Shown: piece by piece, positions 1-6,101 of the stretch
Position numbering within the stretch: position 1 is the stretch's first letter
Layout: every line of letters starts with the position of its first letter
Origin: Deltaproteobacteria bacterium
GTDB lineage: Bacteria; Desulfobacterota; Desulfarculia; Adiutricales; JAGVGV01
Assembly (NCBI GenBank): GCA_015233515.1
Contig: JADFXS010000176.1
Span: 1 to 6,101 of the forward strand
Length of the DNA stretch: 6,101 nucleotides
Direction: 5' to 3'
Program-made: the position numbers and the translations under genes
The notes under the pieces: model-generated
The model's database searches: none
Told to the model about the DNA's origin: nothing
The model's input: only the letters and a program-made list of their open reading frames with translations

Positions 1-226
1 CGACCAGGCCTTCGGCTTACAAGAGCATTAAGGCTTCGCGAACCGGCGGGCGGCTGATAGCAAGGCGTTTTGCGATTTCTTCTTCCTTGATCTGCTGCCC
101 CGGCTGGAATTCTCCGGAAAGAATCCAATCCTGAATATGTTGCTTCGCGACGACTACTAAAGATTCGATTTTCAATCGTTCTCTCACCTGGTTGTAAAAG
201 TGACCAGAATCCAGCAACTTCCTCAT
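1..226 (-). pseudogene. GntR/FadR-type transcriptional regulator, 5' part, interrupted by in-frame TAA; continues past the left edge
   Basis: DNA-binding regulator, probably the local repressor of the methyltransferase operon. From the proposed ATG (224-226) the frame gives 69 residues. Residues about 22-69 form a GntR winged helix-turn-helix, with ILSGEFQPGQQIKEEEIA and AKRLAISRPPVREAL matching the family's usual pattern. After REALMLL comes TAA (17-19), and the same frame then reads AEGLV to the window edge. GntR proteins normally read LEAEGLV here, so TAA sits where a Glu codon (GAA) is expected. The effector domain lies outside the window. I chose this ATG because AGGA lies 9 nt upstream and a TTGACA box lies upstream of it; longer frames from TTG at 304 lack a ribosome binding site, and a TTG start nearer the HTH is also possible. 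It could be a true pseudogene, a sequencing error or a read-through gene. The family call is firm; functional status is open. Confidence 0.8.
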
Positions 227-337: not shown

Positions 338-970
338 TTATTTCAAAAGAGCTTTCGCTAACTTGCTCGCGCCCCCGGCATCCGAGGCATAACCGTCGGC
401 GCCGATTTTTTCGGCAAACTGCTGCGTTACCGGTGCTCCGCCCACGATGATCTTGACCTTGTCGCGTAACCCGCTTTCCGTGATCGCTTTTATCGTCTCC
501 TGCATCATATTCATCGTAGTGGTCAGCAGGGCCGACAGGCCTACCATATTGGGCTTTTTATCGTTTATCGCCGCGACGAACTTCTCGGGAGATACATCCA
601 CGCCCAAGTCGATCACCTCGAACCCGGAGCTTTCCAGCATCATGATGACCAGATTTTTTCCAATATCGTGAAGATCTCCCTTGACCGTGCCGACCACGAT
701 TTTACCAGAGGTACTCATGTCTTCCTTTGATAAATGAGGTTTTAAAACTTCAACCGCGGTGGCCATGGCTTGGGCGCTGAAGAGGACTTCGGGAATGAAC
801 ATTTCGCCCTGTTCCATTTTATTCCCGACTATATCCATCCCGGTGACCAAGCCATCGTTGAGAATCGAGGCGGCGTTCACGCCATCCTCGAGCATTTTTT
901 TAGCCATCGTCACTAAATTTTCGGCGTCTCCCACCATCAGGAGCTCTATCATCTTGCTAAAATCAACCAT
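338..970 (-). CDS. Methyltransferase cognate corrinoid protein (MtbC/MttC/MtaC family)
   Basis: Cytoplasmic B12-binding shuttle that accepts a methyl group from the substrate-specific methyltransferase and presents it to a second methyltransferase acting on tetrahydrofolate or another carrier. The 210 residues match the usual family length. Residues about 1-85 form the helical cap domain (EQGEMFIPEVLFSAQAM at 53-69). Residues about 88-210 form the Rossmann-like cobalamin domain, with the DxHxxG signature as DLHDIGKN (D99, H101, G104). H101 is the expected lower axial cobalt ligand. SALLTTTM (146-153), VGGAP (176-180) and GADGYASDAGG (190-200) are the expected later cofactor contacts. ATG at 970 has AGGAGG 8 nt upstream; a GTG one codon earlier is less well spaced. 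It is the last intact gene of the operon, separated from the methyltransferase frame by about 330 bp of hairpin-rich DNA. Nothing in it looks damaged. Confidence 0.95.
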   Translation of the reverse strand: MVDFSKMIELLMVGDAENLVTMAKKMLEDGVNAASILNDGLVTGMDIVGNKMEQGEMFIPEVLFSAQAMATAVEVLKPHLSKEDMSTSGKIVVGTVKGDLHDIGKNLVIMMLESSGFEVIDLGVDVSPEKFVAAINDKKPNMVGLSALLTTTMNMMQETIKAITESGLRDKVKIIVGGAPVTQQFAEKIGADGYASDAGGASKLAKALLK

Positions 971-987
971 CACAAATTCCTCCTCTT

Positions 988-1052: not shown

Positions 1053-1129
1053 ATAATTTTTGGCGCCCGTTGTTGATAATGATCGAAATGATATCGTTCC
1101 GCTCAGCGCCCCATAAGGGCTGCAGGCTT

Positions 1130-1261
1130 GTAGCCCGGCGATTCATCGCCGGGAAATCGTTTCGCCTATCTAACATTTTGTCGCGTAGCGACTAACCAAT
1201 CCGTGGCTTGAAACCCACGGCTACCATCCTTCAATAAGGGCGATTGATTAATCGCCCCTAC
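1130..1261. repeat. Cluster of GTAG-tagged palindromes (REP/BIME-like)
   Basis: Three perfect hairpins lie within about 130 bp. CCCGGCGA/TCGCCGGG with a 4-nt loop (1134-1153) is preceded by GTAG on the plus strand. CCGTGG/CCACGG with an 8-nt loop (1201-1220) and GGGCGATT/AATCGCCC with a 4-nt loop (1238-1257) are each followed by CTAC, i.e. preceded by GTAG on the minus strand. A small GTCGC/GCGAC hairpin (1180-1192) lies between. GTAG at the foot of a stem, in opposed orientations, is the hallmark of REP elements and the composite BIMEs mobilised by RAYT (TnpA-REP) enzymes. No RAYT gene is in the window, so the class is inferred from form only. Confidence 0.6.
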
Positions 1262-1304
1262 AACACGGCGAACGGAAAATTTCTCCCTTCGGCCGATGTC
1301 CGCG

Positions 1305-2756
1305 TTACTCCACCAGTTTCCGATCGGCCGCCGCGACTATCTCGTTCATTTCCTTCACGGTCTCGGCCGGAAGGTCGATCGGCCCGGCGTCTTTCATCAA
1401 CTTTTCCAGATAGGCCGCGGCGCGTTCAACCAAGGTCCCTTGTTTTTTGTCCAGCCACATGGAACGAGTGGAACGGACAAAATTTATCGGTTCAAAACCG
1501 TCGCGGCAGTGTTTACGGGTATGGGCACCGGGCAAAAACTGGCCGCCCGGTTCGCAATGCATCAGTTCTTCCCACCCCAAGGCGTCATCGTCAAAGCTCA
1601 TCTTGGCCACGGTGGCTTTAGTCATGCCGAGAACTTCATTATCGACCACCAACTGGACCGGACTGATAGTACAGGCCGTCTCGATCTGACCGGCCGCGCC
1701 GACTACGCAGCCTCCCGACAGGGCGATCAGTACAGTTCTCATGGCCCTTTCGCTCATCCCTTGACCATCGAGATCCGGGGAATCGGAACCCGAACCATAG
1801 GTGTGGGCCGGAATACCATAGATGGATTGCATCTGCTGGACAAAGAGCGCGGACTGACGTGAAGCTTCGACGCTGGATTGCATGTTCAGGCCGGTTCTCA
1901 TATCGGCCGAAAACTGCAGGGAAGTGGCGATGATCGGGATGCCGGGCTGAATCACCTGAGCCGTGGCGAGCATAACCAAATTTTCCACCACTCCGACCAT
2001 CGCCGCGCCCGGTGCGGTAATAGGCGCCGTAGTGCCGGCTCCCGGCAAACTGCAGGGCTGCATGGGAACGCCATGACGAGCCGCCTGGAGGATGATTTCC
2101 AAATCCATCGGTTTAAAAACAAAAGGACTAACCGAGCAGGTGATCCAGCTAGCCAACGGATGTTTCCGCAGAGCGTCCTGGCCGCCCGCCGCCGCAATAA
2201 GCAGTTTTGTCAGATACTCAATACTTTCAAAGGTATATGGCTGGATCCAAATATGCTTTTACATGTTTTCCAAGGCGGTTTTTAAGGCATAAATTTCCGC
2301 GGTGGCGCTCGGGACATCGGGACGTACAGGAAAATCAAAGAAATCGATAGATTTTAAACGGGCGGTCAGCTGCGCCCATTAGGCGACGTCCGCCAGCTTG
2401 ACCCGCCGATAAGTGCCGGTTCCTGGTTCTACCCAAGACTGCGCCCCGGTGTTCGTTCTGGTGTGAAAGGTTCCCTCCGGGTGGGGAAACGTCAAGGGAT
2501 ATTTTCCGTTCCGGCCTTCCAGATCAAAAGACTTCGGCGCCTTATCGATTTGTTCTTCCATGAAACTCTTCGGAAAACGGACCATATTAGTATCAAAATC
2601 CACGTGGGCTCCAGCTTCGCTTAAAAGCTTCAAGACCGTGGGGTGGTTCATTTTGACGCCGCGTTTTTCCAGAAATTCAAACGCCTTCTCTTTCAGTCGA
2701 TGCGATTCTTCCTCGGAAAAATACGCAAACCTGGAATGGTTGGGACAATTACTCAT
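1305..2756 (-). pseudogene. MttB-superfamily (trimethylamine methyltransferase family) protein, non-pyrrolysine type, with two in-frame TAA codons
   Basis: Would transfer a methyl group from a methylated amine, probably a quaternary one, to the cognate corrinoid protein. ATG at 2754-2756 has AGGAGG 5 nt upstream. One continuous frame of 483 codons, a normal family length, ends at TAA 1305-1307. It has TAA at codon 126 (2379-2381, after KLADVA, before WAQL) and codon 166 (2259-2261, after ALENM, before KHIWIQPYT). Family sequence is intact throughout: FEFLEKRGVKMNHP near residues 27-40, KSIDFFDFP 135-143, QPYTFESIEYL 172-182, PGAGTTAPITAPGA 238-251, and GSGSDSPDLDGQ 321-332. Pyrrolysine-type MttB has its TAG near residue 334; there is no stop in that region here, so this resembles the MtgB/MtpB/MtcB betaine-type enzymes. 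Without read-through it would give only a 125-residue fragment; a TTG at codon 201 opens a 283-codon 3' frame but has no evident start signals. The family call is firm; substrate and whether it is expressed are unknown. Confidence 0.88.
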
Positions 2757-2879
2757 TTTTTCCTCCTATTACAGGCCATTCCTGCTCATTTTCCATATTG
2801 AAGCGAATGGTCGCTTATCCAAGTTCAATAACTTATTCAGTCGTGTATTCCTTAACGGTTTTGCAAGTCCGAAGCTGAG

Positions 2880-2927
2880 GATTTTTCGGCCGGAAACCAC
2901 AAAAGATGCGGTTTCCGGGCCAAAATC
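2880..2927. repeat. Long imperfect hairpin at the 3' end of the symporter gene
   Basis: GATTTTTCGGCCGGAAACC (2880-2898) pairs with GGTTTCCGGGCCAAAATC (2910-2927) around an 11-nt loop, giving roughly 17 pairs with a small mismatch or bulge. It overlaps the symporter stop codon (2926-2928). No T-run follows on either strand, so it is not a classic intrinsic terminator. It may protect the 3' end of the transporter message or mark an RNA processing point before the methyltransferase gene. Confidence 0.55.
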
Positions 2928-4449
2928 ATTCCGCGTAATAAATAGCTTCCGCTTTATCCAGAGCTCCATAAAAATCATCCAGGATTTCCGCGTCCATTTC
3001 CTTAGTGACCAGACTGACGACTACCAGCAACACTCCTGAAACCAGCATGCCGAATACGCCGTACCAAGAATCCCCATAGCCGTATTGATAAGTCAATAAC
3101 ACCGTGATGACTCCGGCGACGGTGGAAATAATGGCCGCGGGTTTAGTGGCCCGTCTCCAATAAAGAACCGCGAGCAGGACCGGAAACATCGGCATGACCA
3201 TGGCAATGGCGAACATGATCAGGGTCCAGATCAAATTAGGGGGATTGAGGGCCAGCAATAAGGCGGCCACCCCTAAAGCAAAAACAGCTAGGCGGGCGAT
3301 GAGCGTGTGTGTTTGGGGTGACACCTGAAGTTTCAGAATTTTATTGAGAATATCCTCGGAAATTATCGAACCGGCGACCAGAAGGTGAGCCGTAGCGCAG
3401 GATAATCCCTTGGCTAAGGTTCCCCAAACGAATATTCCCATCAACACGGCGGCAAAAGTTAACATTTTGGGTGAAATAATCTTGGTCAGCAAGAGGGGGA
3501 TGACCAGTTCGGTATCGCCTTTGCTCAATCCGGGCAGCAGGCTGATGGCGGCAAACCCGATAACCATGGTGCCCGTCCAAACAACAAACTGCAAAACAGG
3601 CTGAAATATCATCAGTTTTCGTTGACTACCGATGGAATCGCCGAAAAAGCCGGCTCTGATGAATACATCCGGCAGCATGATGGTCCAGCCGATGGCGCAG
3701 GCGATCGGATACCCAAACCTGGCCGAATACGGGACCCAACCATCGGGTCCGGGATACGAAAACCACGCATTACTGTGCTGCCACACCAGGCCGACGGATT
3801 GCAAAATAGACCCGTCAAATCCGACATATAAAGCGCTTATGGCGATTACCCAGAGAGCGCCCATGAATATCCAACCTTGAACCGTAGCCGCCCAAGCCAC
3901 CGACACCACGCCTCCGAACGGGATAAAAAGCAGGGTGGTCAGACCGACGAAGACGATAATCGCTTGATGGGAGACCAGTCCCCCGCTGGCTATTTCCGCG
4001 GCTTTGCCGCAGGCGGTATAGATGGCCGCCGCATATGGCAAGGAGACGCTGAAGAAAACAATGGCGAGAATAACCCTGAGCCCGGGACTGCGGAAACGAT
4101 CGGCGAAAACATCGGCCGGAGTGGTGTAATGCCTTTGTGTATTCAACAGCCAGACCTTGTTCATGACGAAATAGGTCAAAACCGGAAATAGAGGCATATA
4201 GCTCAATTCCGACAACCAAAACGCAAAGCCGCCGCGATAATAGCCGCCGGGTCCGGCAAAGAACACCCAGGTGCTCATTAAGGCGGCGATATAGGTCATT
4301 ACCAAGACAAAGGCGCTGATCGTTCCACCGGCGGTATAATAGTGCCTGGCCGATTCTCCCCTTTGTCGCCACCATACGAAAATACCAAAAGCAATAAGGG
4401 CCGCCATATATATAATGTAACAAGCCCAAGTCACAGTTGCAGATAACAC
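2926..4449 (-). CDS. Sodium:solute symporter family (SSS) transporter
   Basis: Inner-membrane importer of 507 residues, a typical SSS length, with about 13 hydrophobic segments. Family landmarks are YYTAGGTISAFVLVMTYIAALMST (first part at 37-50), which covers TM2 with the usual A-x-x-ST ending; HYTTPADVFADRF (107-119); GWTIMLPDVFIRAGFFGD (254-271), matching the M-P-x-x-x-x-R motif; and WGTLAKGLSCATAHLL (342-357), the TM8/Na2-site region. That last segment departs from the usual STADS-type sequence, although S350 and T353 could still supply hydroxyl ligands. The start is GTG 4447-4449 with GAGGAGGG 6 nt upstream; the stop is TGA. It lies between a two-helix small protein and the methyltransferase frame. 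By context it brings in the methylated substrate, in place of the BCCT or other carriers often seen in such operons. The substrate cannot be read from the sequence. Confidence 0.92.
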   Translation of the reverse strand: MLSATVTWACYIIYMAALIAFGIFVWWRQRGESARHYYTAGGTISAFVLVMTYIAALMSTWVFFAGPGGYYRGGFAFWLSELSYMPLFPVLTYFVMNKVWLLNTQRHYTTPADVFADRFRSPGLRVILAIVFFSVSLPYAAAIYTACGKAAEIASGGLVSHQAIIVFVGLTTLLFIPFGGVVSVAWAATVQGWIFMGALWVIAISALYVGFDGSILQSVGLVWQHSNAWFSYPGPDGWVPYSARFGYPIACAIGWTIMLPDVFIRAGFFGDSIGSQRKLMIFQPVLQFVVWTGTMVIGFAAISLLPGLSKGDTELVIPLLLTKIISPKMLTFAAVLMGIFVWGTLAKGLSCATAHLLVAGSIISEDILNKILKLQVSPQTHTLIARLAVFALGVAALLLALNPPNLIWTLIMFAIAMVMPMFPVLLAVLYWRRATKPAAIISTVAGVITVLLTYQYGYGDSWYGVFGMLVSGVLLVVVSLVTKEMDAEILDDFYGALDKAEAIYYAE

Positions 4450-4523: not shown

Positions 4524-4763
4524 CTAGTGGTTCTGATCATTAGTTTTTTCCACTTTGTTCAGCTTTCTCTGGCGAAACACGATGATCATGCCGGCATAAG
4601 AGATAATCCACATGGGAATAATGGTTAACACCCCATGTATGATTGCTGCTTCAGGATTACCATATGAAGGGACTCCCGGCAGATTGTATAAGACATAAAA
4701 TAAAACTACGAGCCCTAGCCACCACTTTTCCGTTTTTTTATAAGCTTTCTGATTTTCGGCCAT
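4524..4763 (-). CDS. Small two-helix membrane protein, probable SSS symporter partner subunit
   Basis: Seventy-nine residues with two hydrophobic segments, about 14-29 (WWLGLVVLFYVLYNLP from W14) and 41-63 (IIHGVLTIIPMWIISYAGMI), and charged ends (KKTEK near the start, RQRKLNKVEK near the end). ATG 4761-4763 is preceded by AGGGAGG with 9 nt spacing; the stop is TAG. It lies directly upstream of the sodium:solute symporter, 74 bp away. Several SSS systems have such a tiny two-helix protein next to the main permease (for example YhdT beside PanF, or DUF3311/DUF4212-type proteins), so a stabilising or regulatory subunit is a reasonable inference. I cannot assign it to one named family. Confidence 0.8.
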   Translation of the reverse strand: MAENQKAYKKTEKWWLGLVVLFYVLYNLPGVPSYGNPEAAIIHGVLTIIPMWIISYAGMIIVFRQRKLNKVEKTNDQNH

Positions 4764-5169: not shown

Positions 5170-5193
5170 TCATTAACGAAAAGGATGATCGGT

Positions 5194-6012
5194 ATGCGCG
5201 AACTATTCAAAATGTGGCGAAACACCCGGATGATCGTTCTGACCGCGATCTGCGGCGCGGCCTATGTGGCCGTCCTTTTGCCTTTCAAAGGCCTGGTCAT
5301 CGTTCCCGGCCTGACCGAAGTCCGTCCCGGCGCCGCCCTGCCCATTATTCTCGGTTTCCTGTTCGGTCCGGCCGCGGTCTGGGGCGCGGCCATCGGCAAC
5401 ACCATCGCCGATGCCCTGGGCGGCATGCTGAGCCCCGGCACCATTCCCGGCTTTTTCGGCAATATGATCTTTGCCTATATCCCCTATTCCATTTGGCGGG
5501 CCTTGTTCGGCCGGACCAACCCGGTCCGGGCCGGTCTGAAGGGGTGGATAGTTCTATATCTCATCCTCGTTACGGATTGCCTGACCATCGGCGCCGTTAT
5601 CGGCTATGGCGTGGATTTACTGAAACTGGCCCCCTTCGCGGCCCTGGGCCTGATCATCACCGTGAACAATCTCCTCATCGCCGCCGTGTCCGTCCCGCTT
5701 TTGGTCGGCCTGCTCTACGAACGAGTCAGGCTCATGGGCCTGTTGTACTTCCAGGTCATGGACGAAGAACCGGCCGATCAGAATCCACCCGCCGGTTCAT
5801 TTCAACCCACGCGGCGCGCCTGGGCCGGCTTGAGTCTCTGCCTGATCGGTTCCATGCTGGCCTTCGCCATCGGATTGTATATCAGCGGCGAGTCCCTCGG
5901 CGCCGGTTACGGAGTCGCCGCTTTCAGCGCCGCGGCCAAAGGCAGCGTCGCCTTGGGCGCCGGTATGATCCCGGGGTTTTTGATTCTGTTGCTGGGCCTG
6001 ATCCTGCTTTGA
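5194..6012 (+). CDS. ECF transporter S component (substrate-binding membrane subunit), substrate unknown
   Basis: Very hydrophobic 272-residue inner-membrane protein. Helices lie near residues 12-36, 47-66, 82-106, 117-140 and 145-175, matching the compact S-component core. EVRPGAALPIILGFLFGPA (42-60) followed by AAIGNTIADALGG (65-77) is typical of a group of vitamin/queuosine-like S components. A linker (about 188-208, acidic and Pro-rich) leads to two extra hydrophobic segments (210-230, 252-272), longer than a normal S component of about 170-200 residues. The start is taken at ATG 5194-5196 because AAGGA lies about 8 nt upstream; ATG 5185, three codons earlier, would abut its Shine-Dalgarno. 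An ECF-type ATPase begins 5 bp downstream, so the two are co-transcribed. Base composition is visibly richer in G+C than the methyltransferase operon. The family call is good; the transported vitamin or metal cannot be named. Confidence 0.82.
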   Translation: MRELFKMWRNTRMIVLTAICGAAYVAVLLPFKGLVIVPGLTEVRPGAALPIILGFLFGPAAVWGAAIGNTIADALGGMLSPGTIPGFFGNMIFAYIPYSIWRALFGRTNPVRAGLKGWIVLYLILVTDCLTIGAVIGYGVDLLKLAPFAALGLIITVNNLLIAAVSVPLLVGLLYERVRLMGLLYFQVMDEEPADQNPPAGSFQPTRRAWAGLSLCLIGSMLAFAIGLYISGESLGAGYGVAAFSAAAKGSVALGAGMIPGFLILLLGLILL

Positions 6013-6017
6013 CGCCC

Positions 6018-6101
6018 ATGCCTCATCTCCTGACTTGCCGCGATCTGAACTTCACCTATCGCGGGGCAAGCTCCGCCGCCTTGAACAACATAAATTTTCA
6101 T
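6018..6101 (+). CDS. ECF/CbiO-type ABC transporter ATPase, N-terminal 28 codons; continues past the right edge
   Basis: ATG 6018-6020 opens a frame reading MPHLLTCRDLNFTYRG then ASSAALNNINFH. This is the usual beginning of EcfA/CbiO ATPases: a first beta strand, then an aromatic FTYRG A-loop, then ALNNINF before the Walker A, which falls outside the window. It begins 5 bp after the stop of the S component and has no clear ribosome binding site of its own, suggesting translational coupling. It would power uptake together with the S component and a T component expected downstream. Confidence 0.82.
   Translation, partial: MPHLLTCRDLNFTYRGASSAALNNINFH

Follow-up and report, generated by a model that had tools for sequence, protein, structure and literature searches.

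The window, that is, the whole stretch of 6101 bases that was analysed, carries on its minus strand the frames of a small hydrophobic protein, a sodium:solute symporter, a methyltransferase of the MttB superfamily, a corrinoid protein and a GntR-type regulator (Table 1). To judge from its gene content, this is a quaternary-amine-type demethylation cluster composed of these five genes. On the opposite strand, within positions 5185–6101, the QueT-like gene is followed by the apparent start of an ATP-binding subunit, which is cut by the contig end.

Table 1. Features of the 6101-base window
Feature	Position	Strand	Remark
GntR-type regulator frame	1..175	-	likely TTG start at 175-173; runs off the left contig edge; TAA inside
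Premature TAA, regulator codon 53	17..19	-	in the winged-helix region, VREALMLL*AEGLV
Corrinoid protein (MtgC/MtbC-like), intact	338..973	-	terminates with TAA
Palindrome cluster	1100..1265	.	inside the 331-base gap between methyltransferase and corrinoid genes
True end codon TAA, methyltransferase frame	1305..1307	-	usual family length
MttB-superfamily methyltransferase (COG5598-like, non-pyrrolysine)	1305..2756	-	483 codons plus TAA; Pfam PF06253 on both outer pieces
Premature TAA, codon 166	2259..2261	-	context ATG TAA A
Premature TAA, codon 126	2379..2381	-	context GCC TAA T
Ribosome binding site AGGAGG, methyltransferase gene	2762..2767	-	directly upstream of ATG
Sodium:solute symporter, intact	2926..4449	-	terminates with TGA; constraint control in this study
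Small hydrophobic protein, 79 aa, intact	4524..4763	-	goes with the symporter in relatives
QueT-like protein/transporter, open frame	5185..6012	+	followed by the start of an ATP-binding-subunit-like frame

The neighbourhood of MttB relatives was compared in 45 distinct genomic loci, some of which are cut by contig ends: 29 have the symporter, 28 of these 29 also have the small protein, 15 have the corrinoid protein and 5 have the regulator. Since the order small protein–symporter–methyltransferase is kept in relatives and the order methyltransferase–corrinoid protein–GntR-type regulator is found in one of them (L043), a working cluster appears to be the ancestral state. The 79-aa hydrophobic protein, for which a search of Pfam and NCBIfam gave no match, may be a subunit of the symporter. 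The methyltransferase and corrinoid genes are separated by 331 bases in the window, compared with about 65 bases between the corresponding matches in L043. The three strong palindromes at 1100–1265 (z −5.4 when folded as single-stranded DNA) are likely an inserted palindromic repeat with the look of dispersed intergenic repeats; a 20-base part of them had no exact match in viral_contigs.

The initial annotation had described a 483-codon methyltransferase frame that is interrupted by TAA at codons 126 and 166 but free of frameshifts, with a strong ribosome binding site, a normal end and family-like sequence around the stops. All of this is confirmed, given that both outer pieces of the frame match Pfam and that the frame, with the stops read as X, aligns unbroken to P0002–P0005, the nearest four among the matches listed (66–73% identity). 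The MTTB family PF06253 was matched by the piece before codon 126 over residues 8–90 (49 bits, 3.2e-13) and by the piece after codon 166 over residues 8–276 (123.6 bits, 7.4e-36), both above the gathering cut-off of 25 bits. No frameshift or deletion was found in the frame, which aligned to its relatives without large gaps. The disabling mutations counted were two TAA codons in the mttB frame and one in the GntR frame. The last of these, a third in-frame TAA of the cluster, had been missed in the initial annotation; it is 17 bases away from the edge of the contig, and the regulator frame is visible only up to that edge.

The methyltransferase shares its fold family with the non-pyrrolysine members of the MttB superfamily (PF06253; MtgB, MtcB, MtpB and MtyB type). 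Like them, it has Gly instead of pyrrolysine and clusters with a corrinoid protein and a symporter; it differs from them by the two premature TAA codons. The frame is 35–46% identical to most Bacillota loci, as against 66–73% to metagenome proteins. The pyrrolysine MttB of methanogens and some bacteria belongs to the same superfamily and is the textbook example of a stop codon that is translated; however, it recodes a single TAG at residue 334, whereas the codons of the window are TAA and lie elsewhere. The pyrrolysine of MttB is given as Pyl334 in PMC9842639, and residue X334 of 7XCL aligned with Gly323 of the window, a sense codon, so that a TAG near residue 334 is indeed absent, as first annotated. 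With the pyrrolysine MttB model TIGR02369 (curated cut-off 525 bits), the two pieces of the window scored 59.5 and 160.7 bits, and the intact relatives P0002 and P0003 were also below the cut-off (287 and 302.8 bits). Pyrrolysine at the stops of the window was therefore rejected, the codons being TAA and the pyrrolysine site being Gly323.

The MttB search gave 252 matches, 120 of them listed, and alignment A1 consisted of P0001 and 119 other rows; P0006, a fragment from the window itself, was excluded. When homologues were aligned for the residue replacing each TAA, a check proposed in the initial annotation, the close rows had mainly Tyr or Asp at codon 126 and mainly Glu at codon 166. Among the 119 close rows from the matches listed, codon 126 was Tyr in 55, Asp in 35, Thr in 12 and another residue in 17, with Glu in none, and the nearest four relatives among those matches all had Tyr. 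In the 45 distinct genomic loci, which are mostly more distant, the same codon was Glu in 28, Thr in 4, Gln in 4, Tyr in 3, Asp in 3 and another residue in 3. Codon 166 was Glu in 104 and Gln in 5 of the 119 close rows from the matches listed; the 45 loci had Lys (20), Ala (7), Glu (5) and others (13, with Gln in 1). At the regulator stop, each of the 5 distinct genomic loci with a regulator had Glu, as did the metagenome protein P0123. These counts suggest that the nearest relatives point to two different residues at the mttB stops. Glu would nevertheless be acceptable at all three TAA sites, a pattern compatible with one meaning for TAA.

The Glu counts are what speaks for TAA being read in this organism, in some contexts at least, as a sense codon, most plausibly for Glu, although at codon 126 the counts come from the wider loci and not from the close rows. 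Against such a meaning, TAA serves as the terminator of mttB and of the corrinoid gene, each at the length usual in its family, and the corrinoid, symporter, small-protein and QueT-like frames contain no further in-frame TAA. Moreover, the stop reassignments in bacteria that are described in PMC8629427 all concern UGA. We consider a sense TAA to be extremely improbable. A dual role, in which TAA ends genes and yet stands for an amino acid, most plausibly Glu, at some internal sites of the methyltransferase and the regulator, would be very improbable too, if marginally less so. None of the titles listed in our literature search reported that TAA is reassigned in a bacterium.

The premature stops are TAA in all three cases, with no TAG or TGA among them; if the mutation spectrum is assumed to be AT-biased, about 28% of the new stops in mttB would be expected to be TAA. 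Deamination damage of the C-to-T type was rejected as their source, as it does not fit the residues commonest in relatives at the three sites, though Gln occurs as a minority at codons 126 and 166.

We compared the conservation of the methyltransferase with that of the symporter. The symporter search gave 344 matches, 120 of them listed, and alignment A4 comprised the window's own sequence and 53 others, which follow the order of the list from P0125 to P0180 except for three shorter rows that were dropped. Columns were compared in the first 54 rows of A1 and in the whole of A4 (54 rows). In the MttB of the window, 8 of 126 near-invariant columns are changed, which puts it at rank 1 of 54 (53 relatives compared), ahead of P0040 (7), P0053 (6) and P0038 (6). 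The symporter shows 0 departures in 175 such columns and shares the lowest place among its 54 rows. The view taken at first, that conserved residues had not been lost, is thus only partly upheld: more near-invariant residues are changed than in any of the relatives compared, yet each of the eight substitutions is conservative. Random missense changes at these near-invariant columns would be radical in about 54% of cases under neutrality; in 14 similarly isolated relatives, 11 of 47 near-invariant changes were radical. Private changes fell in columns of less than 0.5 bits in 11 of 35 cases in MttB and in 2 of 36 cases in the symporter (Fisher p 0.006).

The evolutionary rate of the two genes was compared as well. 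In the MttB tree of 101 rows, the end branch of the window was 0.33 long, as against 0.12–0.24 for three sisters from the same fork (summed paths). Relative-rate counts were higher for the window in 11 of 12 MttB comparisons, with a tie in the remaining one, and p was below 0.05 in 6 of the 12; in the symporter control this was so in 0 of 18. With P0011 as the outgroup, the MttB rate excess was small or nil (34:34, 40:30 and 41:38).

Given that all eight changes are conservative where about half would be expected to be radical, a period of free drift is unlikely to have been long, and the loss would be recent. In a simple neutral model, about 3–4% of mutations were nonsense (6% with G:C to T:A only), and two nonsense changes together with no radical change at conserved columns had a probability of at most about 2–4% at any mutation number tried, with a peak at 10–20 mutations, a figure that joins two premises and by itself favours no rival. 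Our reading of these patterns, which is no proof, is a recent inactivation: the MttB protein was under somewhat relaxed selection until recently and was then cut.

The faster rate of the methyltransferase may have another cause. Among the matches listed, the named relatives of the symporter are mostly Bacillota ('Ca. Formimonas warabiya', Sporomusa, Desulfosporosinus and Dehalobacter), whereas those of MttB are mostly Desulfobacterota. This suggests that the methyltransferase gene has moved between phyla, and in the present cluster it may have been acquired. Judged by the symporter and the gene order, Bacillota would be a guess for the host. A viral origin of MttB was rejected, as a search of viral_contigs with two peptide patterns found no relative.

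The main rival to a genuine loss is an error of sequencing or assembly, in which a thinly covered metagenome contig would carry wrong bases at three sites and the genes would be intact in the organism. The window seems to be a whole contig of 6101 bases, the length listed for the contig that encodes its proteins; one of the three stops lies close to its end, and no second copy with at least 90% identity was found among the matches listed for either MttB (best 73%) or the symporter (best 75–77%). In addition, the stops come without any indel and the protein sequence around them is family-like. However, error should strike all genes alike, and the symporter retains 175 of 175 near-invariant columns and the other four intact frames have no stop. 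If errors were frequent enough to produce three nonsense codons, some of them should have struck the symporter, and the excess change of the MttB lineage would require a separate cause. We regard such an error as unlikely.

Leaky or regulated read-through, in which some insertion of an amino acid at TAA would yield a little full-length methyltransferase (and regulator), was also considered. The conservative nature of the eight near-invariant changes would fit a full-length protein selected until recently, and PMC7918605 describes bacterial genes with in-frame stops and a dN/dS below 1 as widespread, its Table 1 giving a dN/dS of 0.74 around TAA. For the same reason, the claim in the initial annotation that read-through would be at unprecedented positions is too strong. 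On the other hand, with two TAA codons in the same gene the losses at each would multiply. The premature stops have the contexts TAAT, TAAA and TAAG, and the stop at codon 126 thus has a +4U, which reduces read-through in E. coli according to PMC5289835. The RNA around the stops is ordinary as well: four stretches folded before and after both mttB stops gave z 0.36 to 1.38 against shuffles, the 103-base stretches after the stops giving 0.39 and 0.68, and no Rfam family was found in the window, so that a stimulatory RNA structure was rejected. A suppressor tRNA within the window was rejected likewise, since the scan of its 6101 bases revealed no tRNA gene. Finally, a stop at codon 126 or 166 was found in 0 of the 45 distinct genomic loci. 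Taken together, read-through seems quite improbable, somewhat more so than an error of sequence.

The explanation that we favour as probable is that the methyltransferase and the regulator of this uncultured anaerobic bacterium were recently pseudogenised by nonsense mutations. Of the three possibilities raised in the initial annotation (pseudogenisation, error and read-through), recent pseudogenisation fits best, because the GntR-type regulator is cut as well, MttB has evolved faster than its sisters in most comparisons and the symporter has not, and the MttB of the window has lost more near-invariant residues than any of the 53 relatives compared; read-through gained no positive support from the relatives, the RNA folds or the +4U context. 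Several points count against a pseudogene, namely that there is no frameshift or deletion, that the changes are conservative, that the neutral model gives such an outcome a low probability, that the rate excess depends on the outgroup and that P0040, P0053 and P0038 come close to the eight departures of the window's MttB. For ordinary decay, it is also a little odd that TAA is the codon at every one of the three stops and that none of them is an easy C-to-T product of the common residues of relatives. Isolated nonsense codons in otherwise conserved frames are likewise a mark of the young pseudogenes and stop-containing genes of bacteria that PMC7918605 portrays, but the window differs from these in that one of its genes has two stops and a neighbouring gene has a third.

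If the two genes were recently inactivated in this way with their neighbours left intact, translation of the methyltransferase would stop at codon 126. The TIM barrel of Methanosarcina barkeri MttB spans residues 82–395 as given in PMC9842639, and both mttB stops fall within the stretch that matches it, codon 126 corresponding approximately to Asp135 and codon 166 to Ala177 of that protein (manual count on the alignment). Neither fragment would have a complete barrel, and the methyltransferase gene is presumably dead or nearly so. The corrinoid protein and the symporter remain intact; they may serve other methyltransferases, or too little time may have elapsed for their loss.

If the ordinary explanation holds, the locus is one more methylotrophy gene cluster being lost. 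Real translation of the TAA codons, by contrast, would make this the first bacterial case of ochre recoding known to us. The MttB superfamily can reach dozens of copies per genome, with 82 in 'Ca. Formimonas warabiya' as reported in PMC9768040. On the ordinary explanation, the locus also cautions against taking an in-frame stop in an MttB, on its own, as evidence of recoding.

Stops are present in other MttB frames. The sole stop in the aligned stretches of the 45 loci was a TAG at position 267 of L005 (the same gene as that of L041 and L054); with 1 of 45 relatives having an in-frame stop, single nonsense codons are not unheard of in this subfamily. This TAG may be either a nonsense mutation or a pyrrolysine inserted at an unusual site. 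Elsewhere, L051, a relative with 26% identity, has a TAA at the position of residue 43, L053 has a TGA near the C-terminus, and L052 has in its aligned stretch just a TAG at the pyrrolysine site, its listed TAA presumably lying outside that stretch. The L005/L054 gene belongs to the Desulfobacterales chromosome CP070694.1; its in-frame TAG, around 2139 of L005/L054, is at the residue-267 position, off the pyrrolysine site, and other MttB frames of this genome often carry a TAG.
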